From Trachythela sp. YZ-2020 (lineage: Eukaryota; Cnidaria; Anthozoa; Malacalcyonacea; Clavulariidae): a stretch of 64,000 nt of DNA. Below the pieces are notes generated by a model that saw only the letters and a list, made by a program, of their open reading frames with translations, was not told where the DNA came from and did not search any database. The stretch lies in NCBI GenBank assembly GCA_016169945.1, contig JADLSH010000369.1, positions 7,024,001 to 7,088,000 of the forward strand, in the 5' to 3' direction. Each line of letters starts with the position of its first letter. The first letter of the stretch is position 1. This document shows positions 118 to 14,043 of the stretch, in pieces. The position numbers were made by a program, and so were the translations under genes.

Positions 118-193
118 AGTAGTAATGAGAGGGACTATACGTCACTTTCTAAAAATCCAATTCCAAATATGCCATTTTCAAAAGTGACGCCAA

Positions 194-500
194 ATGCCAC
201 CATTTTCATTTTCCACAAATTTTCAAAATTTCCCAAATTTCATTTTCCACAAATTTTCAAAATCACAAATTTTCAAATTTTCATTTTCCACAAATTTTCA
301 AATTTTCATTTTCAAAATTCTTAAATTTAATTTTTCCAAAATATTCTCAAACCCTTCCCAAAAATATTTTCACAAATTTTCCCAAATATTTTCCAAAAAT
401 TTTCCCACCAAAAATCCTTCCAAAATTTTCCCAAACCCTTCCAAAAAATATTCCCAAAAACCTAAATATGGAATTCCACCTTTCACCTTTTCAAGACCTT
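194..500. repeat. Left subterminal low-complexity tract
   Basis: Degenerate short repeats of the form TTTTCCACAAATTTTCAAA and CCCAAATATTTTCC. An open frame of 102 residues runs through it, but it is only Phe/Ser/Asn/Lys/Pro low complexity produced by the repeat, so I do not call a gene. The right arm has the matching tract. Confidence 0.7.
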
Positions 501-526
501 AAATAAAACAACCTTTAATATAAAGT

Positions 527-757
527 ATGGACTGTCTATGTAAAGAGTTTTTACTATTAAAAATTAACAAACCACCTTATAAATGCTGTGACAATCCAAT
601 ATTGGATGACTATAATGCTGTGATATTTTGTGTTAATTGTGGCGAAGAAAATGGAGAAAGAGTCCCATATAAAATGGGTGGAGGATACTCTGTTATAGGA
701 AGACTGCCAAAAACAAAGAAAGTTAAAATTGAGAAAAAAATTTATCCACAAAAATAA
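527..757 (+). CDS. Small cysteine-rich (zinc-ribbon-like) protein, left-arm copy
   Basis: A 76-residue protein. Its cysteines fall as CxC near the N terminus, CC at about 19-20 and CVNC at about 35-38, followed by a lysine-rich tail ending KKIYPQK. The spacing suggests a small zinc ribbon, but I do not recognise a family. The right-arm copy (13388-13618, minus) differs at only one residue (L versus F at about 26), so both copies are intact and duplicated by the terminal repeat. It is read inward from the terminus, followed 9 bases later by the zinc-finger gene. A role in DNA or terminus binding is a guess from composition and position. Confidence 0.6.
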   Translation: MDCLCKEFLLLKINKPPYKCCDNPILDDYNAVIFCVNCGEENGERVPYKMGGGYSVIGRLPKTKKVKIEKKIYPQK

Positions 758-766
758 AAATATAAT

Positions 767-979
767 ATGAGTAACTGTAATATTGGGGTTACACTTTTTA
801 TGTGTACTAGGTGTGATTGGAGTGGTCTAAAACTGGTTATAAATTACATTTAAAAGCAAGTCATAACATTTCGTTGTTAAAAACAAAAGCCTATTGATAT
901 TGGCATTTGTGACACCTGCGGATATAAAACAAGCAATATCACAGACATGGGAAAACATATTAAAAAACACATAAAATAA
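767..979 (+). pseudogene. Broken left-arm copy of the two-finger C2H2 protein
   Basis: Matches the intact right-arm gene at 13163-13378. One base is missing at about 824 (AGTGGTCTA against AGCGGGTCTA) and two in an A-run at about 880. The first deletion shifts the frame into a stop at about 850, and the two deletions together restore the frame too late. The nearly identical surroundings show this copy decayed recently while the right copy stayed intact. Confidence 0.75.
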
Positions 980-989
980 CTATTAATTT

Positions 990-1011
990 TCTAATCCAAA
1001 AATGGATTAGA
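990..1011. terminator. Gene-end hairpin, left arm
   Basis: A perfect 9-bp stem TCTAATCCA / TGGATTAGA with a 4-base loop. It lies between the converging ends of the zinc-finger remnant and the polymerase remnant. The same structure occurs at 13131-13152. Confidence 0.6.
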
Positions 1012-1022
1012 AAGACAAAGAT

Positions 1023-1358
1023 TTAATAACCATAAGGTAATGTGTCGAAATTATCTAAAACAACTCGTTTGTTGTAATCTAATTTAAATTTCTTTTCCTC
1101 ATACTTATTAACAATTTCTAAATTACTATTCCTTATGAATGCAGTTCTTGAGGTTGTGATATTTTCTTTTGACTTATTGACTATTTCTAACATACTTTCT
1201 TGATTAATTTTCTTTCTATTTTTATCATTTAATGCGAAACCTTTCACCTTACAAACTTTAGTACCACCTTTTGTTCCCCAGGCATATGATTTAGGTCCTG
1301 ATGCAACCCATTTTGTGATAACATCACCATCTAACTCAAAAGGGAGAAAAACGGCCAT
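1023..1358 (-). pseudogene. Left-arm PolB copy with in-frame 1,365-bp deletion
   Basis: An open frame of 111 residues. It joins the first 8 codons of the right-arm polymerase (MAVFLPFE) directly to residues 464-566. All catalytic motifs (A, B and the DTDS of motif C) lie in the missing 455 codons. The remaining 103 residues are identical to the right-arm protein. At the junction the base triplet TGA is shared by both breakpoints (11439-11441 and 12804-12806 in the right arm), which points to a microhomology-mediated deletion. The frame, start codon and upstream region are kept, so a small product could still be made, but it cannot be a polymerase. Confidence 0.88.
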
Positions 1359-1582
1359 GTCTGTACTATTTTCATTGCCAAATGGCTATAAAAATAGTAA
1401 GGGTTTTTGGGTAAAATAGGGCTCCCCGGGTTTGCTAAAATATTGTGTAAGTTTTTTAAAAACAGTTTTTGTCCCGAGTAGCAAGTTTGCCCTCCCCGGG
1501 TTTGTGTAAGATATTAGGTCCCGCGCAGCAAGATGTTATGTAAAAATATTGTATAAGTTTTGTATAAAATATTGTGTAAGAT

Positions 1583-1721
1583 GGTGTCGTAAAACCCGAC
1601 ACCCTAAGATATAAGGTACAAGGGCTTTGCTTCGCTCGCATGGTGTCGTAAAACTCGACACCCTAGGATATACGGTATAAGGGTTTCGCTTCGCTCGCGT
1701 GGTGTCGTAAAACTCGACACC
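1583..1721. repeat. Three hairpins in a 59-bp tandem repeat
   Basis: GGTGTCG ... CGACACC stems with 7- to 8-base TAAAAC loops occur at 1583-1603, 1642-1662 and 1701-1721. The spacing is exactly 59 bases. The linkers share GGCTTTGCTTCGCTCGC-like sequence, which is itself GC-rich against the AT-rich element. The array lies just inside the left terminal repeat, with no counterpart at the right boundary. It may be an origin, a protein-binding site or a transcription end signal; the sequence does not decide. Confidence 0.7.
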
Positions 1722-1844
1722 CTAAGATGTTATTTTGTGTAATTAAAAAATAATTACATAAAATATTGTTAGGAAAGATGTTAGGTCCCGCGTAGCAAGA
1801 TATTTTAAAATATTGTTTTGGAAAAGTTGTAGTAAAACTTTGGG

Positions 1845-2270
1845 TTACCAATTTACAAGATTACCACCTATTGTACTATATTCCGATTGCCCAGATGTTG
1901 TGTTTTCTATAACAAGCCCTTCCAACCACTTTCGAAGATTCCAGGAGGCTTCGTAAACATTTTTTAACACAGAGGTTTGTTTAATTTTAAGATCGGTGCT
2001 TGTCGTTGGATTATTTGTTAAAGGAAACACAAAATCCCAAATAACAAACAAATTATCTACGATTTTTTTATATGCTTCCGGCTCTATGTCCTCCGCTAGT
2101 AAACTATGTAAACTTACAAGGGGTACATTCCAACAATTAATTTTATTAAGACTTGGCACTATTGTTACTTTTACAGTTTTACAAGTTGCATATGGTACAC
2201 TTTGTAACCTTTTTAAGGTTGTTATGTATTTAGTAAGTTTTTTATATAATTGTTTGGTTTTTGGATCCAT
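1845..2270 (-). CDS. Uncharacterised 141-residue protein
   Basis: I do not recognise this protein. It starts MDPKTKQLYKKL with a basic N terminus, has a mixed helical middle including the hydrophobic stretch IVDNLFVIWDFVFPL at about 70-84, and ends in a Ser/Thr/Gly-rich tail. It has no cysteine pairs, signal peptide or clear membrane segment. It is transcribed divergently from the 906-residue Rep-like gene, with 78 bases between the two start codons, so the two may share a control region. No hairpin of the TTTGTAACC type follows it; the 59-bp hairpin array begins 124 bases downstream. Confidence 0.6.
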   Translation of the reverse strand: MDPKTKQLYKKLTKYITTLKRLQSVPYATCKTVKVTIVPSLNKINCWNVPLVSLHSLLAEDIEPEAYKKIVDNLFVIWDFVFPLTNNPTTSTDLKIKQTSVLKNVYEASWNLRKWLEGLVIENTTSGQSEYSTIGGNLVNW

Positions 2271-2348
2271 TTATTATTTTTAAAATAACTTTTACTTTCT
2301 ATAAAATCAATTTTATTTGGTTTAAAGAAGATAAAAAACATGCAATAA

Positions 2349-5069
2349 ATGGCAACTAAAATAGTTAACGATAAGGATGTAACAAAAGAAAAGGAACCAC
2401 AAATGGAGTGGGAAAAATTATACCTTCCAACAACAACAAAAACAACGATCGACTTAACCGATCTTAAACCAAAAGAGATTGGCTCGCTTAAAAATAGATA
2501 CCAAGAAGATATTTTTAGGTTAAACTTAAGAAATAGATGTGGTGTTACAAATTATAACAAGTATGGAAAGAAACTTGGTATACCATTTAGATCTGTTAGC
2601 GATGCGTTTTGCGATAACTTTTTAATAGGTGCCCCTGTATCCATAGAATATTTTAAAGGTGGGTTGGACTATAATAATCCCGAGGACGAAGAAGAAGAAA
2701 ATACTACCAATAATTATAAGCATCTTGGTGCTCTTAACGAGAAAATTCGTAATTATCTTAAAAGTAATGGTCTTCCGGAAGCAGCCATCGGAGCTAGTGT
2801 AAAAACAGTTGGTCTTGCAGCAAAACTATTCGAAGAGACAGATATTTTAGCAAGTAAAATACATCTTCGAAAAGGTATCCCGGGTAGGTACAAAATACAA
2901 AAATTTAAGATTAGTTGTGCTAACATAGATTTAGAAAAAGTTTTACAGTTTTTACAAAAAACAAAACATATACGAAAGGATCTTGGTCTTCCCTTGTTGG
3001 ATATCGATATTACAAAAGATTTTGCAGGTAGTTTCGATAGGCAGGAGGTTATTAGATATTTAAATTTTGATGGGGGTTTTAGAATGCAAGGACAAAAGGA
3101 TACAGCAGATATGCTTACTGGAAACTATAGACATTTTGACGAGGACACTAGAACAATACTTAGTAACAAACACTATGTTGGTAATAACTGTTTGTCGTGG
3201 ATTTACACAAACTCCCATGGACAAACAACGCGAGGTAAAATTTATAATAAGTTTATACAAATGTTGGAGTCCCAAAGTGTAAGATCTAGTTTTGGAGAGC
3301 ATTGGAAAGATTGGGTAACACAAGAGGGTACAAGATTATCTGCGGCAAGGGATTTGTCTACGGAAGATGGGTTGTCCAGATTCGAATACACAGTTTATAT
3401 CGACGAACACGAAGACACAAATGCAAAACTCGATGTGGAAGAGATAATTAGTTGTGTTGTGGACTTACCTTTGTTTTTAGATAGTTCTATGGTTTGGACA
3501 ACACCATTTCGGGAACAATGGAAGGCCTACTGCGAAGAGATGGAACACACTTTAGTTGTTTGGAATAAAAATGACGACTCGGCAAAGTTTGGTTACAACC
3601 ACAACGACATTACAGGAAAAACAACTGGTGTGGAAATAAAAAATATGTCCAAAAGAGAGAGATGGTGTCTTGGAAATTTATCTTTGGACGAGCGGTTACC
3701 AATAGATGTAATAAGTTACGAGTTTAAAAATAATAATACTGTGGTACAATTAGAACATAAAAGTTACCAAAAGTTTTGGGATGGTAGACACAACCCTAAA
3801 AAAAGTACAGCTATTAACACTTTGTGCGAAGACCCAAAAAATAATCTTTTATACGAAGAGGAACCAAAAAACGGAACAAGATTAATTGGTAAACATGGAC
3901 CATATAGTTGTTACGCAAAAGGTACACCAACAGAAAACCAAGCGCGTTTAGAAAGACTTGGAATAGTAAAAACACCATCGTGTACAATGCACTTACCTTC
4001 CACTAAATCCACAGCAAAATCTGCATGTTATTGGGCACTATTAGGTTTACATAACACAAGCGATCTATTAACACCTTCTATGTATAAACAAAAAGTATTG
4101 TGTAACAAAAAGGTAATAGAACAATCTAAAACTGTGTTATCCGACATAGTCAAAAAATCTTTGGATAAGGAAATGGCATATAACATAGAAAAACATACCA
4201 AAGAGATGTTAGAAAAAAAATACTCGTTAGATATCGGAAAATGTATACAAAAACTAAGCAGTTTGCCTATCGGTAAAGAATATACAATAAAATTTATTAA
4301 AAGTATTACAACTCGATATGGGGAAACTTATATTATACTTCTTGGAACAGGCGATTTCGAAGGTACATCGGAGATAACAATATCTGTATATTCCAACACC
4401 GCGCTAACAAATTACCTTAACAAAAACCCTAATTTTAATGGTACTACAATTAAAGTTACAGGGTATGGGACTTATAAAAATAACAAAGTTGTTTGGTTAC
4501 ATATAAAAAGTTTTGGCGAAGAAGAAGAAGTAAAACCAAAAGTAAAATTGGTTACAATATTACCACCCCCCCAGGAAACAGACAAAAGTAATTATAATAG
4601 TACACTCTCCTTTTGTAGTAAAATAGACATAGGTTGTATTGTTACACCAACACATATGTATAATATGGATTGGTATGGGGACCAAAGATTAATTATTAGA
4701 TTAGATGGTTACACACAAGATTTTGCAGCTGGGTTATTTTTGGAAGAAAACATTAAAAGTTTAAAAACTGGTTGTAAACTAAGACTAACGCGTAAGCGAC
4801 AAAACAGAAAAACTAGAAAAAATTACATGGAGTTTGTTATTATACAACCCGAAGAGTGGTGGAAAGTTTTACCAGCAAAAAACATTAAAACATTGTCCAA
4901 ATTAAAAGAAACCCAAAAAATTATAAAAACACATTTGTGTTCGGAAACCAAAGATGTTTATGTTTTTCTTTACAATAATACTGTTTGTAAAGTTAAGCTA
5001 AACAGCGAGTTGTACAAAAAATTAGTACCACCAAAACCAACACCCTGCGAAGCGAAGATTAGTAAGTAA
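2349..5069 (+). CDS. Rep-like replication protein with OB-fold-like C-terminal region
   Basis: A 906-residue intact protein, the largest in the element. Residues about 215-350 follow the layout of replication-initiation factors of the Rep_trans kind: a beta-strand LLDIDITKDF, then RGKIYNKFIQMLES (compare the YxxK of such proteins), then GLSRFEYTVY as the final strand. Residues about 638-720 (LPIGKEYTIKFIKSITTRYG and following strands) look like an OB-fold single-strand DNA-binding domain, and 755-850 may be a second. There is no Walker A motif, so it is not a helicase. Similar sequences are familiar to me from uncharacterised invertebrate proteins, but I cannot name a family. With PolB it plausibly starts or primes replication of the element. 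The CDS start is clear; an upstream AT-rich divergent region separates it from the 141-residue gene. Confidence 0.72.
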   Translation: MATKIVNDKDVTKEKEPQMEWEKLYLPTTTKTTIDLTDLKPKEIGSLKNRYQEDIFRLNLRNRCGVTNYNKYGKKLGIPFRSVSDAFCDNFLIGAPVSIEYFKGGLDYNNPEDEEEENTTNNYKHLGALNEKIRNYLKSNGLPEAAIGASVKTVGLAAKLFEETDILASKIHLRKGIPGRYKIQKFKISCANIDLEKVLQFLQKTKHIRKDLGLPLLDIDITKDFAGSFDRQEVIRYLNFDGGFRMQGQKDTADMLTGNYRHFDEDTRTILSNKHYVGNNCLSWIYTNSHGQTTRGKIYNKFIQMLESQSVRSSFGEHWKDWVTQEGTRLSAARDLSTEDGLSRFEYTVYIDEHEDTNAKLDVEEIISCVVDLPLFLDSSMVWTTPFREQWKAYCEEMEHTLVVWNKNDDSAKFGYNHNDITGKTTGVEIKNMSKRERWCLGNLSLDERLPIDVISYEFKNNNTVVQLEHKSYQKFWDGRHNPKKSTAINTLCEDPKNNLLYEEEPKNGTRLIGKHGPYSCYAKGTPTENQARLERLGIVKTPSCTMHLPSTKSTAKSACYWALLGLHNTSDLLTPSMYKQKVLCNKKVIEQSKTVLSDIVKKSLDKEMAYNIEKHTKEMLEKKYSLDIGKCIQKLSSLPIGKEYTIKFIKSITTRYGETYIILLGTGDFEGTSEITISVYSNTALTNYLNKNPNFNGTTIKVTGYGTYKNNKVVWLHIKSFGEEEEVKPKVKLVTILPPPQETDKSNYNSTLSFCSKIDIGCIVTPTHMYNMDWYGDQRLIIRLDGYTQDFAAGLFLEENIKSLKTGCKLRLTRKRQNRKTRKNYMEFVIIQPEEWWKVLPAKNIKTLSKLKETQKIIKTHLCSETKDVYVFLYNNTVCKVKLNSELYKKLVPPKPTPCEAKISK

Positions 5070-5111
5070 GTAAGTAAAAACTTAACTTTTACAATAATGT
5101 TAATTTTGTAT

Positions 5112-5135
5112 TTGTAACCCAACTAGGTTACAAAC
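5112..5135. terminator. Gene-end hairpin between converging genes
   Basis: TTTGTAACC (5112-5120) and GGTTACAAA (5127-5135) form a 9-bp perfect stem with a 6-base loop. It sits 42 bases after the 906-residue gene and 6 bases beyond the stop of the convergent 241-residue gene, so it can serve both. The same stem recurs after three other genes. Confidence 0.65.
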
Positions 5136-5141
5136 ACACAT

Positions 5142-5867
5142 TTATTTTTTATGGCCATCTACAACTTTATGGCTTTGCATATGGTAGTAACTGGAAAATT
5201 TAGTGTTACACAGCGGACAGGTATGCATATTGGAAATGTACTCCTTACATTTAAGTTTATGCCCATTAAATGGTAAAGTTGGGGCTAGTCGTCTGTTACA
5301 ACTTGTACAACAAATAGGTTGTGGGAAAAGTTTACTACACCACCTAGTTTTAATGTAATTATTTTTAAAAGGGTTTGCTTTTATACTACTTACTGTTATA
5401 TTACAATCTTTTTGTGGTCCAAAAATCTCGGGTGTTGTTTTACACAAATAATTACCATTTAAATGTGTGTATTCGAAAAGTTTATGTTCCTTACTATACT
5501 TAACGCTTGGGAACATATCTATTATGTATTCCAACACAAGACTTTCCAAATATTTAATTGCACCACACACCTCTTTTGGTATACATACTAACTTCCTAGT
5601 GTGTGTGTTGCGTTTAGTTTGGATCCAAAGACAATCTTCGCCTGTTTCCATTAACATTTGGAAAGTAATCTCCTTACCATTTAATAACGGCTTAAAATTA
5701 AAAAGAGGATTTTTAATAAATCCCGGTTGTGGATCCCAACACACATATTGTTCGAAACTAATTACACCTTGTAAACAGGAACTGTTTTGAATCTTAGATT
5801 TTGTTACCTCTTGCATTTTTTCCCCTGCTTCGTAAGTTATGTTGTGTTGTACAGTTTGTGTATCCAT
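5142..5867 (-). CDS. Zinc-finger protein, 241 residues, paralogue A
   Basis: The C-terminal third (residues about 186-241) carries CCTSC, then LPFNGHKLKC, then a classical C2H2 finger CPLCNTKFSSYYHMQSHKVVDGH ending at the C terminus. The same module ends the 156-residue protein at 6487-6957 with nearly identical sequence, so the two are paralogues or share an exchanged domain. The N-terminal 185 residues contain several cysteines and the segment GFIKNPLFNFKPLLNG; I do not recognise them. The gene is convergent with the Rep-like gene and lies between it and the 21-bp array, which suggests array binding, but that is inference. Its AUG is preceded by TTATAGAATAAAA on the gene strand. Confidence 0.7.
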   Translation of the reverse strand: MDTQTVQHNITYEAGEKMQEVTKSKIQNSSCLQGVISFEQYVCWDPQPGFIKNPLFNFKPLLNGKEITFQMLMETGEDCLWIQTKRNTHTRKLVCIPKEVCGAIKYLESLVLEYIIDMFPSVKYSKEHKLFEYTHLNGNYLCKTTPEIFGPQKDCNITVSSIKANPFKNNYIKTRWCSKLFPQPICCTSCNRRLAPTLPFNGHKLKCKEYISNMHTCPLCNTKFSSYYHMQSHKVVDGHKK

Positions 5868-5922
5868 TTTTATTCTATAACTTGTGTCTGTTTTAAAACC
5901 AATTTAATTTTTTTGGTCTAAA

Positions 5923-6427
5923 CAGAACGCACTATACAAAAAACAGAACGCACTATTTGTAAAACAGAACGCACTATACAAAAAACAGAACGCACTATTT
6001 GTAAAACAGAACGCACTATTTGTAAAACAGAACGCACTATTTGTAAAACAGAACGCACTATACAAAAAACAGAACGCACTATTTGTAAAACAGAACGCAC
6101 TATTTGTAAAACAGAACGCACTATACAAAAAACAGAACGCACTATTTGTAAAACAGAACGCACTATACAAAAAACAGAACGCACTATTTGTAAAACAGAA
6201 CGCACTATTTGTAAAACAGAACGCACTATACAAAAAACAGAACGCACTATTTGTAAAACAGAACGCACTATACAAAAAAACAGAACGCACTATTTGTAAA
6301 ACAGAACGCACTATACAAAAAACAGAACGCACTATTTGTAAAACAGAACGCACTATTTGTAAAACAGAACGCACTATACAAAAAACAGAACGCACTATTT
6401 GTAAAACAGAACGCACTATTTGTAAAA
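5923..6427. repeat. 24-copy 21-bp tandem array with two alternating unit types
   Basis: Every unit begins CAGAACGCACTAT. Type A continues ACAAAAAA and type B continues TTGTAAAA, giving 21 bases each; unit 17 has one extra A, which makes 505 bp in total. The order is A B A B B B A B B A B A B B A B A B A B B A B B. Type A is never adjacent to another A. The array fills the gap between two zinc-finger genes. Open frames across it on the minus strand are products of the 7-codon period and not genes. Iterons for replication initiation or a clustered binding site are the likeliest roles. Confidence 0.88.
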
Positions 6428-6447
6428 TTAAAAAAACAAAACATTAA

Positions 6448-6477
6448 TTTGTAACCTAATTTTGGTTGGGTTACAAA
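6448..6477. terminator. Gene-end hairpin after the 156-residue gene
   Basis: TTTGTAACC at 6448-6456 pairs with GGTTACAAA at 6469-6477. It lies 9 bases beyond the stop codon of the minus-strand gene ending at 6487. Same stem as at 5112-5135 with a longer loop. Confidence 0.62.
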
Positions 6478-6486
6478 TTACACACA

Positions 6487-6957
6487 TTATTTTTTATGGT
6501 CCACAACTTTATGGCTTTGCATGTGGTAATAACTGGAGAATTTAGTGTTACACAATGGGCAGTTATGTTCGTTGGAAATGTATAACTTACAGTTGTGTTT
6601 ATGCCCATTAAACCGTAAAGTAAGCGCTAGGTTTTTGTTACACTCCACACAAACAATACATCGACTAGTAAATTGTTGTTGCTGTTGTGTTTGTAAAACT
6701 TTGTTTACGAAGTCCAATTTACTATAGAAACTATGGCAACTATATTTTACACTACCACGCATAACACCACTAACTTTTAATGCGTAGGATTTTAACAATA
6801 CCGGGGGTAGTTGCATTAAGTGTCTTTGTTCCATACTTAACTCTCGCCATTTCCCTAAAATTTCTAACATCCCCGCCCTACTGTTAGCCATGGAAGTGTT
6901 AGTTCCGGTTTTTTGTAAAATATTTTTTAATATTTTTGTTGTATGGTACTTATCCAT
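6487..6957 (-). CDS. Zinc-finger protein, 156 residues, paralogue B
   Basis: Residues about 100-156 repeat the C-terminal module of the 241-residue protein: a CxxC pair, LRFNGHKHNC, then a C2H2 finger CPLCNTKFSSYYHMQSH ending VVDHKK. The first 95 residues differ from the paralogue and contain a methionine- and leucine-rich helical stretch (about 18-55) and the patch QQQQQF at about 92-97. The gene ends at its own TTTGTAACC hairpin and starts beside a short 21-bp repeat triplet (7057-7119). The pair flanks the 24-copy array, so both could be array-binding proteins with different N-terminal partners; this is inference. Confidence 0.7.
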   Translation of the reverse strand: MDKYHTTKILKNILQKTGTNTSMANSRAGMLEILGKWRELSMEQRHLMQLPPVLLKSYALKVSGVMRGSVKYSCHSFYSKLDFVNKVLQTQQQQQFTSRCIVCVECNKNLALTLRFNGHKHNCKLYISNEHNCPLCNTKFSSYYHMQSHKVVDHKK

Positions 6958-7056
6958 TTTAACAACTTAAAAAATTGGTTTTGTTAAATACAATTTAAAA
7001 TGTTATTTTTTTAGTTGGCCTCGAAAATTATATTTCCAACGATGGAAATAAAATTT

Positions 7057-7119
7057 GCGCACCCCGGTTACAACTGTGCGCACCCCGGTTACAACTGTGC
7101 GCACCCCGGTTACAACTTT
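7057..7119. repeat. Three-copy 21-bp GC-rich repeat
   Basis: Three exact-period copies of GCGCACCCCGGTTACAACTGT; the last ends TTT. It is far more GC-rich than its surroundings. The period equals that of the big array but the sequence is unrelated. It contains GGTTACAA, the half-site of the gene-end hairpins. It lies between the start of the minus-strand 156-residue gene and the start of the plus-strand small gene, so it is in a promoter position for both. Confidence 0.8.
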
Positions 7120-7181
7120 CGCAAATGTTGGACAATTTAAATTGTGTTGCATTTTAATTGTATAAGTTAAGTAAGGTAACA

Positions 7182-7401
7182 ATGCAATTAAAATTAAATA
7201 ATAATATGGACTTGGAAATGTTTGTAACAAAATTACAAAAGTTTATTTGTGCATACCAGGACATTGGAAAACAAAGGCCTTCCACTGGCAGATAACGCAA
7301 TAGATACCTTAGATATGGTGTGTAAAAGTTTTTGTAAGGACTTGGAACAAAATTATGGTGTATATATCGCCTGGGATAGTTTGGACTTGGCAATAAGATA
7401 G
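7182..7401 (+). pseudogene. Small plus-strand gene interrupted by a +1 frame change
   Basis: From ATG at 7182 the frame encodes MQLKLNNNMDLEMFVTKLQK and onward to a stop at 7293. An overlapping frame one base later continues from about 7267 with a protein-like sequence (LPLADNAIDTLDMVCKSFCK and following) to TAG at 7399-7401. Together they would give about 71 residues of helical protein. Either one base was gained or lost recently, or translation shifts frame. A short hairpin (GGGCG...CGCCC, 7412-7430) follows the stop. It is one of only two plus-strand interior genes. No family recognised. Confidence 0.45.
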
Positions 7402-7473
7402 GTACGCAAAGGGGGCGCGTTTTACGCCCTCTTACAACTAATAATTTGTAAAGTTACACACCCTTAAATTTAA

Positions 7474-7638
7474 TTATAACGCTGGTTTTTTATTGCCAAC
7501 CTTTTTCTCCTTGTTATTATATTTTGGCATAGGACAACCATAACACAACATGTAAAGTGCAAACAAAAATGTCCCACCGGTTAAAATTCCCGGGTTTTGT
7601 AACAGCTTAAACAAATAGCATATTGTAGTTATAAACAT
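7474..7638 (-). CDS. 54-residue single-span membrane protein
   Basis: Starts MFITTICYLFKLLQNPGIL, then a hydrophobic stretch about residues 18-36 (LTGGTFLFALYMLCYGC), then a basic hydrophilic tail rich in Lys and Asn. One membrane span is likely. The start codon lies 32 bases from the TTTGTAACC hairpin that ends the next gene, so spacing fits the close packing of the element. There is no recognised family. Small single-span proteins are common in virus-like elements, but no function follows from that. Confidence 0.5.
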   Translation of the reverse strand: MFITTICYLFKLLQNPGILTGGTFLFALYMLCYGCPMPKYNNKEKKVGNKKPAL

Positions 7639-7669
7639 ATTTATTTTTACACTAAGTTTTTAAGTTGTA

Positions 7670-7695
7670 TTTGTAACCTACTTATAAGTTACAAA
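7670..7695. terminator. Gene-end hairpin after the 90-residue gene
   Basis: TTTGTAACC at 7670-7678 and AGTTACAAA at 7687-7695 pair with one mismatch. Located 18 bases beyond the stop of the minus-strand gene ending at 7714. Confidence 0.55.
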
Positions 7696-7713
7696 TACTG
7701 CTGTATTTTAAAT

Positions 7714-7986
7714 TTATACTGTTGTGTGTTGTTGTGTCCTGTTTAATAATTTGTAGTTTATAACCTCCAAATTTTTAACCCTTGTTGCAAGTTCCAATGT
7801 CTCTAAAAATTGTTGTTTTATTTTTGCTTGTAGTAATGTCTTATTTTCCAACGCAATGTCCAACCTCCTTTGTAGTCCATTAGCTCTTTTGTGTTGTTCC
7901 TCTCCAAATTTAGTCCAATATTCCAAAGTGTAAGGTGTTTTGTTTTTACCGTTACACTTGTTTTTAATGTAAGAAATAATACCCAT
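7714..7986 (-). CDS. Coiled-coil protein, 90 residues, paralogue A
   Basis: Starts MGIISYIKNKCNGKNK, then YTLEYWTKFGEEQHKRANGL, then a long heptad-like helix with Leu/Ile/Val spacing to the end. The 145-residue protein next to it has the matching blocks MDVIKYINKKLQRKKK and HTMEYWVSFAEEQYRRANAL, so they are tandem paralogues, this one lacking the last ~50 residues of the other. The shared EYWxxFxEEQxxRANxLQ block looks like the start of a coiled coil. Probably a structural or oligomerising protein; no family recognised. Confidence 0.62.
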   Translation of the reverse strand: MGIISYIKNKCNGKNKTPYTLEYWTKFGEEQHKRANGLQRRLDIALENKTLLQAKIKQQFLETLELATRVKNLEVINYKLLNRTQQHTTV

Positions 7987-8033
7987 ACTGTAATATTATC
8001 TTGTAACCAAAAGTTTACTTACAACAATTTGTA

Positions 8034-8058
8034 TTTGTAACCCAAAATAAGTTACAAA
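8034..8058. terminator. Gene-end hairpin after the 145-residue gene
   Basis: TTTGTAACC at 8034-8042 and GTTACAAA at 8051-8058 form an 8-bp stem. It sits 13 bases beyond the stop of the minus-strand gene ending at 8072. Confidence 0.58.
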
Positions 8059-8071
8059 TACTACATTTTAC

Positions 8072-8509
8072 TTACACTAAACTTACCCTTTTGGGGATAA
8101 CAAGTTTTCTTAAATTTGTTATCTCCAATGCTGTTGTTTCCAATTCCACAACGAGGTTACCAAGAAGTGCTTCCCTTACGCCATTTGTCTCCAAGTCCAT
8201 CTTTAATTTGTAGTTCTCTTTTTCCAAAAGTTTGGTGTTGGATTCCAAATCCATAAGATCCATATCTCGCTGTGTTACTTTTGCTAAAAGTTCCCATATG
8301 CGAGGTTTTGCTTTGTTGTACAGGGCCTCGTATTTTCTTGCGTCGTCCAATTCCATTTGTAAGGCATTAGCCCTTCGATATTGTTCCTCTGCGAAGGATA
8401 CCCAATACTCCATTGTGTGTAAATTTGTTGTTGTACTTGTGGACTCCTTTGTAGTTTTTACTTTCTTTTTTCTTTGTAACTTTTTGTTAATATATTTAAT
8501 AACATCCAT
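8072..8509 (-). CDS. Coiled-coil protein, 145 residues, paralogue B
   Basis: Tandem paralogue of the 90-residue protein. I choose the ATG at 8507-8509 (MDVIKYINKK) because it aligns with the start MGIISYIKNK of the paralogue; an in-frame ATG five codons earlier exists. The order is a basic N terminus (KKLQRKKKVK), a Ser/Thr run, the shared EYWVSFAEEQYRRANALQ block, then a coiled coil of about 90 residues, ending KLVIPKRVSLV. It has no cysteines. Probably a structural or scaffold protein of the element; function not inferable from sequence. Confidence 0.62.
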   Translation of the reverse strand: MDVIKYINKKLQRKKKVKTTKESTSTTTNLHTMEYWVSFAEEQYRRANALQMELDDARKYEALYNKAKPRIWELLAKVTQRDMDLMDLESNTKLLEKENYKLKMDLETNGVREALLGNLVVELETTALEITNLRKLVIPKRVSLV

Positions 8510-8589
8510 TTTTGTATTTTGCACAATATATTATTTTTATGTTTTAAAAGACAAAAATATACGATTTAAAACACAAAAAAATAATATAA

Positions 8590-8907
8590 TTACAAAACCA
8601 ACAAACAAACTGTGTGTCCCTTAATTACAGTTTGTTTTTTAATAGCATATGCAACACCGCTTTTTGTTACGCCAATATGTTTGGCCGCATTTGTTATACT
8701 TTGTAAAACAGTTTTTATACCAGTTTGCATGTTTTTAACAACGCATGGATTACTAAGTGTGTTCTTAGATTTTTGGATTTGCTCTTTGTTTGGGACCCTT
8801 TTAACATATGGGACATTTAGTTTTTTAGCAAGTTCTAATTTACTTAATTTAAAATAAGGTATCTTTTGTTCCTTTGCCATATATTGTAACTCCTTTAATG
8901 TTCCCAT
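8590..8907 (-). CDS. SAP-like plus NUMOD1-like DNA-binding protein, 105 residues
   Basis: Residues 1-33 (TLKELQYMAKEQKIPYFKLS, then KLELAKKLNV) have the two-helix pattern of SAP/Rho-N domains that bind nucleic acid. Residues about 60-98 (ITNAAKHIGVTKSGVAYAIK followed by IKGHTV) fit the helix-turn-helix NUMOD1-type repeat found in homing endonucleases and viral regulators. No nuclease domain accompanies it. The 214-residue neighbour has a related helix-turn-helix, and the 185-residue protein a related SAP-like start. The ATG lies 3 bases from the shared promoter motif at 8911-8935. Confidence 0.6.
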   Translation of the reverse strand: MGTLKELQYMAKEQKIPYFKLSKLELAKKLNVPYVKRVPNKEQIQKSKNTLSNPCVVKNMQTGIKTVLQSITNAAKHIGVTKSGVAYAIKKQTVIKGHTVCLLVL

Positions 8908-8910
8908 TTC

Positions 8911-8935
8911 TTATTATGTACACAAACTATGTATA
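8911..8935 (-). promoter_or_regulatory. Shared promoter motif upstream of the 105-residue gene
   Basis: On the gene strand: TTATACATAGT, 5 bases, TACATAATAA, then 3 bases to the ATG. The same two half-motifs precede the genes starting at 10250 and 11078, and are not seen before the other genes. Confidence 0.6.
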
Positions 8936-8942
8936 ATTTTAA

Positions 8943-9587
8943 TTAAATAAGACCTAGTTCCTTCTCTCTTTGTAATATCCTCTTCTCTCTTAGGTTTAAA
9001 TCTAACTCCTTTTTCGTTAAAAAATCATCGCGACAAGATAGTGCTTTCTCCTTCGTAATTAACTCTTCTTCGTAAGTTTTAGTGTCTTGCTCTTCCACAT
9101 CTTGTTTTTCCACATCTTGCTCTTCCACATCTTGTTCTTCCACAACACTTTCCTTTTTTGGTGTATTAACATAAGTAACGACACACTCCCCATCCTTAGT
9201 TTTAACACACTTACCGTTTTTAACTTTGTTCGAAAGTGTTGTTTTACAAATACCAAGTGCACTCGCAGCATCCTCCATTCTTTCGTATGTGGTTGTTTCC
9301 CCTGTTTTTTGGTCTTCCAACACAACTGGCTTACCTTGTTTTTGTGCTCTACTTACGATATCCACTTCTTGTATAAATTTTTTAACATGTTCCCTTACAG
9401 TTGTTTTAGCACCCAATAATGTGTTTAATCTATCTACGCCTAAAATTTGTAAAACAATACTAGGTCTGGATTGTTTAGGATGGTCTTTGTTAAGATTATA
9501 TAGCGTTTGGGAGAGATAAGTTCTTTCCGTTTGTGTTGTCCCACTAATAGTGTCCAACATTTGTACAATAAAATTTATACTATCCAT
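8943..9587 (-). CDS. NUMOD1-like helix-turn-helix protein with acidic repeat and coiled coil
   Basis: A 214-residue protein. Residues about 85-140 read PVVLEDQKTGETTTYERMED, AASALGICKTTLSNKVKNGK and a closing VVTYV strand, which is the layout of a NUMOD1-type helix-turn-helix as in phage and eukaryotic virus regulators. Residues 148-168 are four EEQDV-type acidic repeats. Residues about 172-214 form a charged coiled coil. The first 80 residues are helical and unrecognised. There is no catalytic motif. A degenerate version of the shared promoter (AAGTATAGTAAAGTATTACT) precedes the ATG. Likely a DNA-binding regulator or chromatin-like protein of the element. Confidence 0.62.
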   Translation of the reverse strand: MDSINFIVQMLDTISGTTQTERTYLSQTLYNLNKDHPKQSRPSIVLQILGVDRLNTLLGAKTTVREHVKKFIQEVDIVSRAQKQGKPVVLEDQKTGETTTYERMEDAASALGICKTTLSNKVKNGKCVKTKDGECVVTYVNTPKKESVVEEQDVEEQDVEKQDVEEQDTKTYEEELITKEKALSCRDDFLTKKELDLNLREKRILQREKELGLI

Positions 9588-9640
9588 AGTAATACTTTAC
9601 TATACTTATCTTTACACTTGTAATTATATCGACTGTGTAT

Positions 9641-9673
9641 TATATGTGTAAGATATTATAGCTTACACATATA
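9641..9673. terminator. Gene-end hairpin after the 185-residue gene
   Basis: A perfect 12-bp stem TATATGTGTAAG (9641-9652) / CTTACACATATA (9662-9673) with a 9-base loop. It sits 19 bases beyond the stop of the minus-strand gene ending at 9693. A lone TTTGTAACC half-site lies between hairpin and stop. Confidence 0.6.
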
Positions 9674-9692
9674 GTAAATATTTGTAACCTAA

Positions 9693-10250
9693 TTACTTGC
9701 GCTGTTGGTATTTAATACCACAAAGTATCGCACTAGCACCAGTTACAAATATAGATAACAAACCAATATCTCCCCAAGATAGTGTTTGGGACTGTTGTGG
9801 TAGTGGGTACTGTTGTTGTTGTTGTTTGCGATGGCTGTGGTATTTTGTATTTGGGCTTTTGTGTTTTACTGGGCTTTTGTGTTTAGTGTTTGGACTTTTA
9901 GTTGTTCTTACTGGGCTTTTGTGTTTAGTACTTTGTAGGCTTACATATTTACTTTGTACACTACTTTGTACTGTACTTTGTACACTACTTTGTACTGTAC
10001 TACTTTGTACACTACTTTGTGCACTACTTTGTGCACTACTTTGTGCACTTACTCTTACAGGTTGGGCTGTACAGCCTTTACAACTTACAGATTTACTTTG
10101 TACTTTTGTATTACCAACCTTATTTTTAATCTCTTCCGCAAATAATTTTTTATTACTTGCATTCCATTTCTTACTCCATGGATTTTTAACACCAACACGC
10201 GCTGCGGACTTTCGTAGGTCCTTAATTTTATACTTATCGTAGTGTTCCAT
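9693..10250 (-). CDS. SAP-like protein with Gln/Ser repeats and C-terminal membrane segment
   Basis: A 185-residue protein. Residues about 7-42 (YKIKDLRKSAARVGVKNPWS and following) resemble the SAP/Rho-N fold. Residues about 68-100 are SSAQ/SSVQ repeats whose codons form a CTACTTTGTACA-like DNA repeat. Residues 106-140 are KSP-rich repeats (KHKSP), then a Gln run. Residues about 161-178 (DIGLLSIFVTGASAILCGI) form a single membrane segment near the C terminus, followed by a short basic tail. It thus joins a putative DNA-binding head to a membrane anchor by a long flexible linker. The shared promoter motif (10252-10275) sits one base before the ATG. Confidence 0.6.
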   Translation of the reverse strand: MEHYDKYKIKDLRKSAARVGVKNPWSKKWNASNKKLFAEEIKNKVGNTKVQSKSVSCKGCTAQPVRVSAQSSAQSSAQSSVQSSTVQSSVQSTVQSSVQSKYVSLQSTKHKSPVRTTKSPNTKHKSPVKHKSPNTKYHSHRKQQQQQYPLPQQSQTLSWGDIGLLSIFVTGASAILCGIKYQQRK

Positions 10251-10251
10251 T

Positions 10252-10275
10252 TTATTATGTAATTACTATGTATAA
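10252..10275 (-). promoter_or_regulatory. Shared promoter motif upstream of the 185-residue gene
   Basis: Gene-strand TTATACATAGT, 3 bases, TACATAATAA, one base, ATG. Second of the three near-identical occurrences. Confidence 0.6.
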
Positions 10276-10283
10276 CACATACA

Positions 10284-11078
10284 TTATGCGACAGCACCAA
10301 CCTTAATTTTATCCTTGTTTCTTACAAGTGCTTTTGTGTAATCTTGGTGTTCGTGTGTTTTAACAGAGTAGTTATTCGCTACTTGTGGTTGTGCAAGATA
10401 ACCACCACTAACTTTAATTTTAACCTTTCTTGTAATGGCTGGCGTATAATCTTGGTGTGCATGTTGTCCCCTAACAACACTAGGTGTGTTAAAACTTCCT
10501 TTGTCCAACATCGTTTTTACAGGTATATTATGTAGTGCTATTTTTACTCTGCGTTTAATTACAGGTGCGTTAGGTACACTGTAAACAGTACCTGTTTTAA
10601 GTTGTAAATGTTTTTGGTGTACAAAGGAACTCTCGTTTAACACCAAATCTTTAATGCGCGTAATGGGTTGTTGTGTTTGTATGTTATTTTCCGGGAGAAG
10701 ACTTGCCTTAACTTTTCTTTTTGGTAACACATTATCTGTGTGCATTTTAAGTAAATGGTCTTGTTTAATTTTCCTTTTGTATTGGCTGTGGAATGGCTGT
10801 GCACCAAGAGTGCCACTTAACGCAGTGTCCCTATGTATAATACCATTGTAATTTGTTTTTCTACTGGTGTCCCTTACAATCTCCTTATGTCTTGCGCCAA
10901 CATCGTTATGTAGTTGTTTTGCGTTGGTAATAATTTTAACCTTTCTTTTTGGAAAAAAGTCTTTTGTTTTTTCCACAGGAATCTTGTGTTGTTTCCTTAT
11001 TGCGTTATCTCTGCTTTCCCCTGTTATGGTGCCCTTATTTTTAACATGGCCTTTTATGGCCGACATTTGTGCGTGCAT
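10284..11078 (-). CDS. Basic repeat protein, 264 residues
   Basis: Very rich in Lys, Arg and His. A KRKVK(I) motif recurs at about residues 44, 101, 120, 175, 217 and (degenerate) 253, each preceded by Pro, Val or Ile and followed by a short strand. The block HxHQDYT occurs twice near the C terminus, so the protein is built of degenerate 40- to 55-residue repeats. It has no cysteine, membrane segment or enzyme motif. The composition suits a DNA-condensing or core protein, as in other DNA viruses, but only composition supports that. Shared promoter motif at 11082-11104. Confidence 0.62.
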   Translation of the reverse strand: MHAQMSAIKGHVKNKGTITGESRDNAIRKQHKIPVEKTKDFFPKRKVKIITNAKQLHNDVGARHKEIVRDTSRKTNYNGIIHRDTALSGTLGAQPFHSQYKRKIKQDHLLKMHTDNVLPKRKVKASLLPENNIQTQQPITRIKDLVLNESSFVHQKHLQLKTGTVYSVPNAPVIKRRVKIALHNIPVKTMLDKGSFNTPSVVRGQHAHQDYTPAITRKVKIKVSGGYLAQPQVANNYSVKTHEHQDYTKALVRNKDKIKVGAVA

Positions 11079-11081
11079 AAT

Positions 11082-11104
11082 TTATTATGTAGTACTATGT
11101 ATAA
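11082..11104 (-). promoter_or_regulatory. Shared promoter motif upstream of the basic repeat gene
   Basis: Gene-strand TTATACATAGT, 2 bases, TACATAATAA, 3 bases, ATG. Third occurrence of the motif. Confidence 0.6.
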
Positions 11105-11120
11105 GGGTATTTTGTTTTAA

Positions 11121-11220
11121 AATAATTATTGTACAAAACAAAACACAAATAATTATTGTACAAAACAAAACACAAATAATTATTGTACAAAACAAAACAC
11201 AAATAATTATTGTACAAAAC
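11121..11220. repeat. 27-bp tandem repeat made of two palindromes, nearly four copies
   Basis: Units start at 11121, 11148, 11175 and 11202. Each holds AATAATTATT (perfect 10-bp palindrome) overlapping TTGTACAA (perfect 8-bp palindrome), then AACAAAACAC. The array ends where the right terminal repeat begins, upstream of both the PolB gene and the divergent basic repeat gene. Operator or origin function is possible. Confidence 0.82.
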
Positions 11221-11418
11221 TTATACAATATTTTTACATAACATCTTGCTGCGCGGGACCTAATATCTTACACAAACCCGGGGAGGGCAAACTTGCTACT
11301 CGGGACAAAAACTGTTTTTAAAAAACTTACACAATATTTTAGCAAACCCGGGGAGCCCTATTTTACCCAAAAACCCTTACTATTTTTATAGCCATTTGGC
11401 AATGAAAATAGTACAGAC

Positions 11419-13119
11419 ATGGCCGTTTTTCTCCCTTTTGAAATATGGAAGGAAGTGGAGAGAAGAGAAAAAGAAATGCTTGGTCTTGAAGAAGAAGATG
11501 GAGATGAAATAGCGCCAACAGTTTTAAAAGTCGATGGATTTTGTAAAGAAAATAATACTGTGTATGAGTTTCAAGGTTGTTTTTGGCATGGTTGTCCAGA
11601 TTGTCATAACCCTCATTTAATCAATCCAAATAACCAATTAAGTATGGGTGAGTTGCAACAAAGAACTCAAAATAAAAATAAGAAAATTAGAGAAGCTGGT
11701 TATAATCTTGTGGAAATTTATGAATGTAAGTTAGCAAAAAATACAAAGTTTAAAAAAATGAAGTGTGAATTTGAAATTATAACTCCATTAAACCCAAGAG
11801 ATGCTTTTTTTGGTGGAAGAACAAATGTCACCAAACTTAAATATGATTTTAAAGAAAATGAGTGTGGTAGATATGTTGATTATCTTAGTCTGTATCCTAG
11901 TGTTCAGTTTTTTTGTGAATATCCTGTAGGTCATCCTGTCAAGATATTTAATCCAACTGAATTTGACCCTAATTGGCTTGGCTATGTAAAATGTAAAGTG
12001 GAACCACCAAAAGGGTTATATCATCCTGTGTTACCTGTAAAAACAATGTGTGGTAAGTCCAAAAAGTTGTTGTTTCCCTTATGTAAAACTTGTGCGGAAA
12101 CACAAAACCAAAAGGTTTGTAACCATAATTCAAATGAGCGAAGTTTTATTGGAACCTGGTGTACAAACGAAATTAATAAGGCTGTTGAAATGGGTTATAA
12201 AGTTCATAAAATTTACGAAGTTTGGCATTTTAATAAATCTTCAAATAACTTATTTAAAAGTTATGTTCAAAAGTTTTTAAAATTAAAAATTGAAAGTTCC
12301 GAACCTCCAAAAGTTGGGGTCGGTTGTGAATATAAAGATTTAGACGAGTTCAAAAAGGTAATAAAGGAAACTTTAGGAATAGAGCTAGGTGAAATTAAGT
12401 TTAATCCAGGAATGCGAGCTATCGCTAAAATGTGTTTAGTTAGTCTTTGGGGAAAATTCGGTCAGCGAATTAATATGTCAAAAACTTGTTACGAAAGTGA
12501 TCCCTCTGAATATTATAAAATTATTTTAGACTCAACAATCGATAACATTAATATTCATTTTTTCAAAGAGGGGTCAGTAGCAAGAGTAAATTATACAATT
12601 AATGATCAGTTCGTGGATAATAGTAATAATGTAAATATTTTCATAGCTAGTTTTACAACAAGTTTCGGAAGAATAAAATTGTATAACGAGTTAGAAAAAT
12701 TAGGTGATCAAGTTTTAGGGTTTGACACAGATAGTGTGTGGTATGTGGATCGTCCTGGTGGATATAAAGTTCCAATTGGTTCATTATTGGGTGATTGTAC
12801 TGATGAGTTAGATGGTGATGTTATCACAAAATGGGTTGCATCAGGACCTAAATCATATGCCTGGGGAACAAAAGGTGGTACTAAAGTTTGTAAGGTGAAA
12901 GGTTTCGCATTAAATGATAAAAATAGAAAGAAAATTAATCAAGAAAGTATGTTAGAAATAGTCAATAAGTCAAAAGAAAATATCACAACCTCAAGAACTG
13001 CATTCATAAGGAATAGTAATTTAGAAATTGTTAATAAGTATGAGGAAAAGAAATTTAAATTAGATTACAACAAACGAGTTGTTTTAGATAATTTCGACAC
13101 ATTACCTTATGGTTATTAA
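11419..13119 (+). CDS. polB: Protein-primed-type family B DNA polymerase, N-terminally short
   Basis: A 566-residue protein. Residues about 38-62 hold VDGFCKENNTVYEFQGCFWH and a following GCPDC, the conserved block that precedes the palm in Polinton and organellar/viral type B polymerases. Motif A is VDYLSLYPS (153-161), motif B is KMCLVSLWGKFGQR (337-350) and motif C is DTDS (436-439), followed by the family's C-terminal GPKSYAWG and a TLPYGY end. All three polymerase motifs are intact. The 3'-5' exonuclease region expected upstream is absent, because the gene starts only ~30 residues before the VDGF block; Polinton polymerases usually exceed 1,000 residues. It lies inside the right terminal repeat. 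The left-arm copy is deleted for residues 9-463. Confidence 0.92.
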   Translation: MAVFLPFEIWKEVERREKEMLGLEEEDGDEIAPTVLKVDGFCKENNTVYEFQGCFWHGCPDCHNPHLINPNNQLSMGELQQRTQNKNKKIREAGYNLVEIYECKLAKNTKFKKMKCEFEIITPLNPRDAFFGGRTNVTKLKYDFKENECGRYVDYLSLYPSVQFFCEYPVGHPVKIFNPTEFDPNWLGYVKCKVEPPKGLYHPVLPVKTMCGKSKKLLFPLCKTCAETQNQKVCNHNSNERSFIGTWCTNEINKAVEMGYKVHKIYEVWHFNKSSNNLFKSYVQKFLKLKIESSEPPKVGVGCEYKDLDEFKKVIKETLGIELGEIKFNPGMRAIAKMCLVSLWGKFGQRINMSKTCYESDPSEYYKIILDSTIDNINIHFFKEGSVARVNYTINDQFVDNSNNVNIFIASFTTSFGRIKLYNELEKLGDQVLGFDTDSVWYVDRPGGYKVPIGSLLGDCTDELDGDVITKWVASGPKSYAWGTKGGTKVCKVKGFALNDKNRKKINQESMLEIVNKSKENITTSRTAFIRNSNLEIVNKYEEKKFKLDYNKRVVLDNFDTLPYGY

Positions 13120-13130
13120 ATCTTTGTCTT

Positions 13131-13152
13131 TCTAATCCATTTTTGGATTAGA
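13131..13152. terminator. Gene-end hairpin between PolB and zinc-finger gene
   Basis: Perfect stem TCTAATCCA / TGGATTAGA with a TTTT loop, 11 bases after the PolB stop and 10 bases beyond the stop of the convergent zinc-finger gene. Confidence 0.65.
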
Positions 13153-13162
13153 AAATTAATAG

Positions 13163-13378
13163 TTATTTTATGTGTTTTTTAATATGTTTTCCCATGTCTG
13201 TGATATTGCTTGTTTTATATCCGCAGGTGTCACAAATGCCAATATCAATAGGCTTTTGTTTTTTTAACAACGAAATGTTATGACTTGCTTTTAAATGTAA
13301 TTTATAACCAGTTTTAGACCCGCTCCAATCACACCTAGTACACATAAAAAGTGTAACCCCAATATTACAGTTACTCAT
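13163..13378 (-). CDS. Two-finger C2H2 protein, 71 residues, right-arm copy
   Basis: Finger 1: CTRCDWSGSKTGYKLHLKASH (C-x2-C-x12-H-x4-H). Finger 2: CDTCGYKTSNITDMGKHIKKH (C-x2-C-x12-H-x3-H). The basic end is HIKKHIK. It is intact here and frameshifted in the left arm. Read inward from the terminus after the 76-residue gene, 9 bases apart, so the two may be cotranscribed. Probably binds DNA, perhaps the subterminal or hairpin repeats. Confidence 0.7.
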   Translation of the reverse strand: MSNCNIGVTLFMCTRCDWSGSKTGYKLHLKASHNISLLKKQKPIDIGICDTCGYKTSNITDMGKHIKKHIK

Positions 13379-13387
13379 ATTATATTT

Positions 13388-13618
13388 TTATTTTTGTGGA
13401 TAAATTTTTTTCTCAATTTTAACTTTCTTTGTTTTTGGCAGTCTTCCTATAACAGAGTATCCTCCACCCATTTTATATGGGACTCTTTCTCCATTTTCTT
13501 CGCCACAATTAACACAAAATATCACAGCATTATAGTCATCAAATATTGGATTGTCACAGCATTTATAAGGTGGTTTGTTAATTTTTAATAGTAAAAACTC
13601 TTTACATAGACAGTCCAT
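13388..13618 (-). CDS. Small cysteine-rich (zinc-ribbon-like) protein, right-arm copy
   Basis: 76 residues with CxC, CC and CVNC cysteine groups and a basic C terminus. One residue differs from the left-arm copy at 527-757. Conservation of both copies while neighbouring arm genes decay suggests selection or recent arm conversion. Confidence 0.6.
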   Translation of the reverse strand: MDCLCKEFLLLKINKPPYKCCDNPIFDDYNAVIFCVNCGEENGERVPYKMGGGYSVIGRLPKTKKVKIEKKIYPQK

Positions 13619-13639
13619 ACTTTATATTAAAGGTTGTTT

Positions 13640-13965
13640 TATTTAAGGTCTTGAAAAGGTGAAAGGTGGAATTCCATATTTAGGTTTTTGGGAATATTTT
13701 TTGGAAGGGTTTGGGAAAATTTTGGAAGGATTTTTGGTGGGAAAATTTTTGGAAAATATTTGGGAAAATTTGTGAAAATATTTTTGGGAAGGGTTTGGGA
13801 ATATTTTGGAAAAATTAAATTTAAGAATTTGTGGAAAATGAAAATTTGAAAATTTGTGGAAAATGAAAATTTGAAAATTTGTGATTTTGAAAATTTGTGG
13901 AAAATGAAATTTTGAAAATTTGGGAAATTTTGAAAATTTGTGGAAAATGAAAAAGAGGGATTTGA
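13640..13965. repeat. Right subterminal low-complexity tract
   Basis: Mirror of 194-500, with GGAAAATTTTGG-type repeats. Copy number and spacing differ slightly from the left arm, which is where most arm length differences outside PolB lie. Open frames across it are compositional artefacts. Confidence 0.7.
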
Positions 13966-14037
13966 CGGCACTTTTGAAAATGGCATATTTGGAATTGGAT
14001 TTTTGAAAAGTGCCGTATAGTCCCTCTCATTACTACT

Positions 14038-14043
14038 TACGTC
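14038..14043. repeat. Right target-site duplication TACGTC
   Basis: Partner of the hexamer at 112-117. It follows the element end CATTACTACT directly. Confidence 0.85.

Follow-up and report, generated by a model that had tools for sequence, protein, structure and literature searches.

The question raised by this locus is how an element can carry the ends of a Polinton without recognisable integrase and virion genes of one. The window, a stretch of 64,000 nucleotides on contig JADLSH010000369.1 of the anthozoan Trachythela sp. YZ-2020, contains such an element at 118-14037, with AG...CT inverted termini (AGTAGTAATGAGAGGG at either end) and a 6-bp target-site duplication, TACGTC, directly outside them (112-117 and 14038-14043). 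Both features are hallmarks of Polintons, or Mavericks, and both had been correctly recognised in the original prediction, which was made from the sequence alone. We find that the 118-14037 element is a chimera, with Polinton arms outside and a separate element inside. The explanation that we favour, and hold to be rather probable, is that of a satellite: a Rep-type nick-and-join element that has captured Polinton ends and uses the functions of a helper in trans.

Polinton arms around a separate element

Long inverted repeats had been predicted and are present, but they form two separate pieces, one outer and one inner, and are not continuous. The outer pair (113-1338 against 12804-14042) is 97.7% identical over 1240 columns and the inner pair (1336-1567, forward strand, against 11210-11441, reverse strand) is 99.6% identical over 232 bp; in the left copy 1365 bp of PolB are missing, and what survives is a 111-aa remnant (1023-1358, reverse strand). 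The left outer arm (118-1338) is a Polinton PolB-end arm, made up of the terminus, the g76 gene, a broken zf71 gene and the C-terminus of PolB, and its longer matches in the genome (578 Mb in 396 contigs searched) are 81-98% identical. The right outer arm (11439-14037, 2599 bp) is the same arm, inverted and longer, and its main alignments with ten Polinton loci are 90-98% identical. All ten align into the PolB region, six of them from the terminus in one piece and four in at least two pieces, and in all ten the alignment ends at the identical base, 11439. The same ten loci match the left arm, where the alignment ends at 1338, and intact Polintons read TCA at both break sites. Neither arm is the opposite Polinton end, since the right end of the full Polinton at C338 resembles the arm over only about 300 bp, at 76%. 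Judged by these sequence comparisons, both outer arms stem from the PolB end of a Polinton family of about 20 kb in the same genome.

Some further details of the arms were observed. The 71-aa zinc-finger gene (region 781-1000) is frameshifted in the left arm and open in the right. Each outer end (118-200 and 13954-14037) holds an inner hairpin whose stem arms vary compensatorily (GTCAC/GTGAC on the left, GGCAC/GTGCC on the right), and the C338 terminus holds a matching hairpin. The terminal AGTAGT (118-126) repeats a trinucleotide, which would fit jump-back protein priming of the adenovirus kind.

The inner element spans 10.1 kb (1336-11441), and a TCA at each border is common to it and the arm. 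Its inverted repeats each start TC-AAAAGGGAG (first bases TC-AAAAG) and have only two copies in the genome, both at this locus. By eye, no target duplication was seen at the inner ends, and no blastn match was found between the inner element and the readable half of C338. The element encodes a 906-aa protein, its main gene (2349-5069, forward strand), and nine small genes, all on the reverse strand. The core genes are mostly under purifying selection, clearly so in seven of the eight compared with the related element at C351:6.0M: the ratio of nonsynonymous to synonymous substitution rates (dN/dS) lies between 0.06 and 0.25 in these seven and reaches 0.52 in the 185-aa gene (the 141-aa open reading frame, ORF, excluded), two of the dS values being above 1 and thus near saturation. 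Matches to the 156-aa gene number 15 pieces at 13 places in the genome, one piece being the element's own 241-aa gene, and 11 of these places have a listed 906-family gene nearby. The segment 5920-11119 is 95.8% identical to the element at C239, yet the two 906-aa proteins are only about 36% identical in their N-terminal parts, indicating that modules have been exchanged.

PolB had also been counted among the Polinton-like features. It is indeed present (Pfam DNA_pol_B_2, E 4e-20), but as an arm fragment. At E 1e-3 the 566-aa frame (11419-13119, forward strand) finds 2146 relatives; of the best 120, which were listed, those at the top are about 60% identical. Its exonuclease domain is wholly missing (residues 1-417 of the relative P0010 have no significant counterpart), and the motif B asparagine, found in 10/10 genomic Polinton copies compared, is replaced by valine; motifs A and C are present, by eye, in the open frame of 566 codons. 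With the exonuclease part absent and motif B changed, this is not the full protein-primed PolB of a Polinton or Maverick. Moreover, the start codon falls within the inner inverted repeat, so that the first codons belong to the inner element and the most plausible reading of the 566-aa ORF is a fusion by chance. The dN/dS of PolB fails to separate the element from Polintons (0.66 vs 0.53), and decay of PolB is therefore not shown beyond the truncation and motif B. In IMG/VR, PolB alone found no homologues; with a PolB alignment 33 viral loci matched, all of them over no more than short segments near the GCFWHGC region. From its sequence and position, PolB is here a truncated passenger of the borrowed arm.

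The 906-aa protein had been described as Rep-like with an oligonucleotide/oligosaccharide-binding (OB) region. The ORF is real and has relatives, four in the protein collection and 57 matching pieces at 50 places or more in the genome, some fragmentary or with stops (a lower bound, 50 of 182 candidates having been scored). Twelve sequences have several motifs in common: D-x-D-x-T-x-D, the block R-x-K-x-Y-x-K, TRL/AR and R-x-E-x-T-x-Y. No marked position has more than one exception, and D218, D220, Y299, R344, E346 and Y350 are conserved in at least 11 of the 12. We take these motifs to be like those of Rep_trans initiators; the assignment of the N-terminus to the HUH class by such motifs is not confirmed, and the Rep-like label is unsupported by any curated profile tried. 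The OB part of the description fares better, with weak structural support: the best region of the predicted structure, from about residue 640, fits tandem OB folds (RPA, LEF-3, SSB), which dominate a Foldseek search with one match at E <0.001. The query was a low-confidence model, and the OB-fold matches are therefore only suggestive. No homologues of the 906-aa protein were found in IMG/VR, and none in GTDB genomes with the 906-aa alignment. A tblastn search of phages and plasmids with P0003 was negative too.

The small genes give few clues to function. The 141-aa ORF (1845-2270), divergent from the 906-aa gene, has no family. The 241-aa protein (5142-5867) has a weak C-terminal C2H2-like match and its first 174 aa are conserved at two other places; the 21-bp tandem repeats at 5857-6482 mark the start of the long similarity to C239. 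Then follow the conserved core gene for the 156-aa protein (6487-6957), again with a weak C2H2-like match, and the 90-aa and 145-aa core proteins (7714-7986 and 8072-8509), which resemble each other. The 105-aa protein (8590-8907) has weak NUMOD1/I-TevI-type DNA-binding similarity, and the 214-aa protein (8943-9587) resembles NUMOD1 and group I intron endonucleases (E 0.0028 in Pfam and 2.1e-6 in a second profile scan, both below curated cut-offs). The 185-aa protein (9693-10250) has a low-complexity middle and, by eye, a hydrophobic C-terminal segment, and the 264-aa protein (10284-11078) has repeated RKVKI-type motifs, also by eye.

The element is rich in hairpins. It has 17 stems of 12 or more; the 20 Markov sequences used for comparison have 1-4 each (mean 2.1), and two flanks, each about 14 kb long, have 1 and 6. 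Six hairpins stand at seven gene ends: one (5107-5138) separates the 906-aa gene from the 241-aa gene, whose 3' ends converge there, and the others, on the reverse strand, at the 3' ends of the 156-aa (6445-6480), 90-aa (7667-7698), 145-aa (8029-8063), 105-aa (8534-8579) and 185-aa (9641-9673) genes. Hairpins stand at gene ends in the half of C338 as well, which suggests that element and helper may share a way of ending transcripts. A late-promoter-like motif upstream of some genes was dropped (one match against 0.10 expected, a number reached by 10 of 100 shuffles). In the host DNA beyond the element, frames of long interspersed nuclear element (LINE)-type reverse transcriptase were seen by eye at 19062-21714 and 40936-43590.

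Helpers and related elements in the genome

Are the functions missing from the element available elsewhere? The search of the host genome for full Polintons with the same termini was fruitful. The left repeat has at least 56 matching DNA pieces (40 of 128 candidates scored), and twelve terminus pairs are listed: in ten the spacing is 19.5-21 kb, in the other two it is 24.7 and 26.6 kb. An integrase match lies inside 11 of these 12 Polintons, and among the matches listed no 906-family match lies inside any of them. One of the twelve, C338, is flanked by the duplication CACGTA, and its right half, the half that was read, has genes for an rve integrase (E 7.7e-9), an A32-type ATPase (E 4.5e-16) and a collagen-like fibre protein, besides others that have no family. 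Of the integrase relatives in the genome, 118 of the 122 scored (from 1272 candidates) have no internal stops. The element thus shares its termini with helpers that encode functions it lacks, as a satellite would, and its 6-bp duplication is no more than consistent with mobilisation by helper proteins in trans. The original prediction had already raised the possibility that the element lacks a capsid and borrows integrase in trans, and this is thereby supported as the likely reading. The terminal 24-mer has no match in IMG/VR. Very short Polinton-like end pairs, 1.7-1.9 kb apart and resembling miniature inverted-repeat transposable elements, were also seen (C389:325231-327023, C389:568197-570113 and C96:3957192-3958917).

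The absence of recognisable integrase, ATPase, protease and capsid genes from the element, as first predicted, held in every search. These families had no Pfam match among 14 products and no PHROGs or NCBIfam match (10 products each), and a tblastn comparison at E 1e-3 matched none of eleven proteins from the readable half of C338, integrase and ATPase included, to the element (the helper protease and part of the presumed major capsid protein lie outside this set). The rve integrase and packaging ATPase that characterise Polintons or Mavericks are therefore missing from the element, and the integrase is found in the helpers. The Pfam scans of the element products gave no helicase match either.

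The same arrangement recurs. We compared 11 places, this locus and ten further members of the 906 family, with 20 kb around each. Inner ends, whose first bases were established at nine of these places (all but C310 and C351:6.0M), start with TCAAAAG at eight (this locus, C239, C26, C374, C221, C50, C282 and C155) and with a close variant at C283. Polinton genes occur in at least one flank at six of the 11 places and in both flanks at four. PolB lies on both sides here and at C26, where it includes the exonuclease part and is likewise outside the inner ends; C239 has a PolB-like frame (E 3e-5) and p176/p161; C50 has p176, p161 and fibre on one side, and fibre with an ATPase fragment on the other; C283 has a PolB start in one flank, and C282 the genes from p424 to fibre in one flank. 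The arms are accordingly combined as left-left (this locus and C26), left-right (C239) or right-right (C50). Outer AG...CT ends with a 6-bp duplication were also found at C155 (11,030 bp, GACGTT) and C310 (9,496 bp, CTGGAC) and, less surely, at C374 (6,500 bp, three mismatches in the ends); at C221 neither Polinton genes nor outer ends were seen. Apparent duplications at C239 and C351:6.0M were discarded as palindromes within repeats. Beside these elements stand two other frames, one of 1416 aa adjoining a compact 906-family element (L059:3222-7472) and one of 270 aa beside the Polinton arm of the C50 element (L066:5685-6494), the latter with weak PCNA_C similarity (E 0.0025, below cut-off).

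The breaks between arm and inner element share a dinucleotide. At C239, where 978 bp match the helper at 95%, the break falls in gene p176 and follows TCA, as do both breaks of the 118-14037 element, making three of three against close Polintons. Against more distant Polintons the breaks follow TCG (C26 right, C50 right) or TCT (C50 left). TC is thus found at 6/6 comparable breaks, that is those with an intact relative, against a background of about 0.05 per position, and the third base varies. As to the inner ends themselves, folding is significant (z -2.2 or lower) at four of nine ends and at none of nine stretches just outside.

A proposed nick-and-join scenario and its alternatives

We propose the following scenario. 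The inner element would carry small accessory genes and code for a 906-aa initiator-like protein of its own, with no recognisable polymerase, integrase or virion genes. The 906-aa protein would nick both inverted inner ends at TC/AAAAG, beside the hairpin, and remain on the 5' end after nicking. Each inner end would then be joined independently to a TC 3'-OH in Polinton DNA, every join adding one Polinton 5'-terminal arm, and the product would be linear, finishing in a Polinton terminus on either side. The helper's protein-primed PolB would replicate this linear chimera, its rve integrase would insert it with a 6-bp duplication, and helper capsids would perhaps package it.

Several observations weigh against this scenario. 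First, the 906-aa protein has no HUH/Rep family match in Pfam and no credible HUH/Rep match among PDB sequences, and Pfam Rep_trans has no match in the whole genome, the B. subtilis control genome being positive. Its AlphaFold model is poor (predicted local distance difference test, pLDDT, 42.6), so that the N-terminal nuclease is put forward on the strength of sequence motifs. Second, the inner-end hairpins are not significant at 5/9 ends, the present element included (its left subterminal hairpin, at 1364-1399 on the forward strand, has z -0.96; the right one lies at 11378-11413, reverse strand). Third, five of the 11 places have no recognised Polinton gene in their flanks; the C310 arm has at least 52 pieces, with relatives at many places, and no full Polinton with C310 ends was found (40 of 896 candidates scored). 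Fourth, the TC at the junctions may be the element's own, reflecting microhomology. Finally, two of 50 family places, C334 and C170, lie within 25 kb of a listed integrase, and at C334 the Polinton that holds a 9.8-kb inner element (paired inner ends matched at 7445941 and 7455720) has a related terminus (75%), its integrase gene (7442283, one internal stop) lying outside the inner ends at a distance of about 2.7 kb.

The C334 element is either a long-arm chimera or a simple insertion, and it speaks for an alternative that we consider unlikely, namely that the inner element is a transposon inserting simply into Polintons, later deletions or inversions of the host Polinton yielding the arm combinations. 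There the inner ends, near 7445.9k and 7455.7k, lie 11 kb inside a Polinton that retains integrase, and the left junction of the 118-14037 element could similarly be a later deletion between TCA repeats. However, the lack of a visible target duplication at the inner ends does not fit a simple insertion, which moreover does not yield left-left chimeras (this locus, C26) or right-right ones (C50) with unequal junctions, each at an inner end.

That the element is a non-autonomous deletion derivative of a Polinton, with unrelated genes picked up by chance, seems to us improbable. Full Polintons do share its termini and arms, and the central helper genes that were read are missing from it, to which extent this objection, anticipated in the original prediction, is justified. 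The interior, on the other hand, is bounded by inverted ends of its own, and its gene set is found at other places too, as the recurrence of the 156-aa gene near 906-family genes shows; the mostly purifying selection on the core genes also counts against this reading. A self-sufficient PolB-Rep lineage, the other possibility first envisaged, could appeal to PolB motifs A and C in an open frame, but we give it very little credence: it is largely refuted by the border at 11439, where the homology of all ten Polintons stops, and PolB, truncated and altered in motif B, lies outside the inner element here as at C26. Equally hard to credit is an assembly or recombination artefact, for although highly similar Polinton copies are open to mis-joining, three things speak against it: the outer duplication is present, the inner repeats occur nowhere else in the genome, and ten other places have related inner elements, nine of which show this end signature, a variant of it or a 6-bp duplication.

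Relation to known elements and significance

How does the satellite that we propose compare with known systems? The element has the termini, the 6-bp duplication, the PolB-end arm and the long inverted repeats of Polintons or Mavericks, but its PolB is a fragment and its interior, without their recognisable integrase, ATPase, protease and capsid, is a different element. The phage satellites P4 and the phage-inducible chromosomal islands (PICIs) are prokaryotic; they have their own replication gene, obtain morphogenesis from a helper and carry packaging signals. The present element would resemble them in its own replication gene and helper-supplied morphogenesis, but it would capture whole helper ends and is not prokaryotic. 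Helitrons combine Rep with a helicase and have TC...CTRR ends; here no helicase was found in the Pfam scans and the ends are inverted. With Helitrons and Replitrons, the eukaryotic HUH elements, it would share a Rep-like nick-and-join reaction, hairpins near some ends and the lack of a visible target duplication at the inner ends; unlike them, it has inverted ends instead of direct or no repeats, shows no helicase and no profile similarity, and is inserted in Polinton arms. For Replitrons, one account describes short direct repeats and target-site duplications of 2-8 bp (PMC10741241). Transpovirons, small linear capsidless elements living with larger DNA viruses, offer a further likeness. We know of no transpoviron with a Rep-like gene or borrowed helper termini. 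They are described as elements of Mimiviridae with 6-8 genes (PMC3671162).

No satellites of animal Polintons turned up in the literature searched, which was mainly open-licence, and this does not show their absence from print. We would give even chances to the view that the family represents a kind of animal mobile element not described before: a replicon that targets TC, works by nick-and-join and welds its inverted ends to any co-resident Polinton 5'-terminal arm, giving symmetric or asymmetric satellite chimeras that exploit helper replication, integration and perhaps packaging. The many open helper integrase genes and the several satellite combinations in this genome make the idea directly testable. 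If it is true, a putative Rep-like protein family would be added to those known, and Polintons would have hyperparasites that steal their ends, which would matter for the question of whether free linear DNA is a replicating form of Polintons and whether they make particles, and would open a new route to chimeric viruses.

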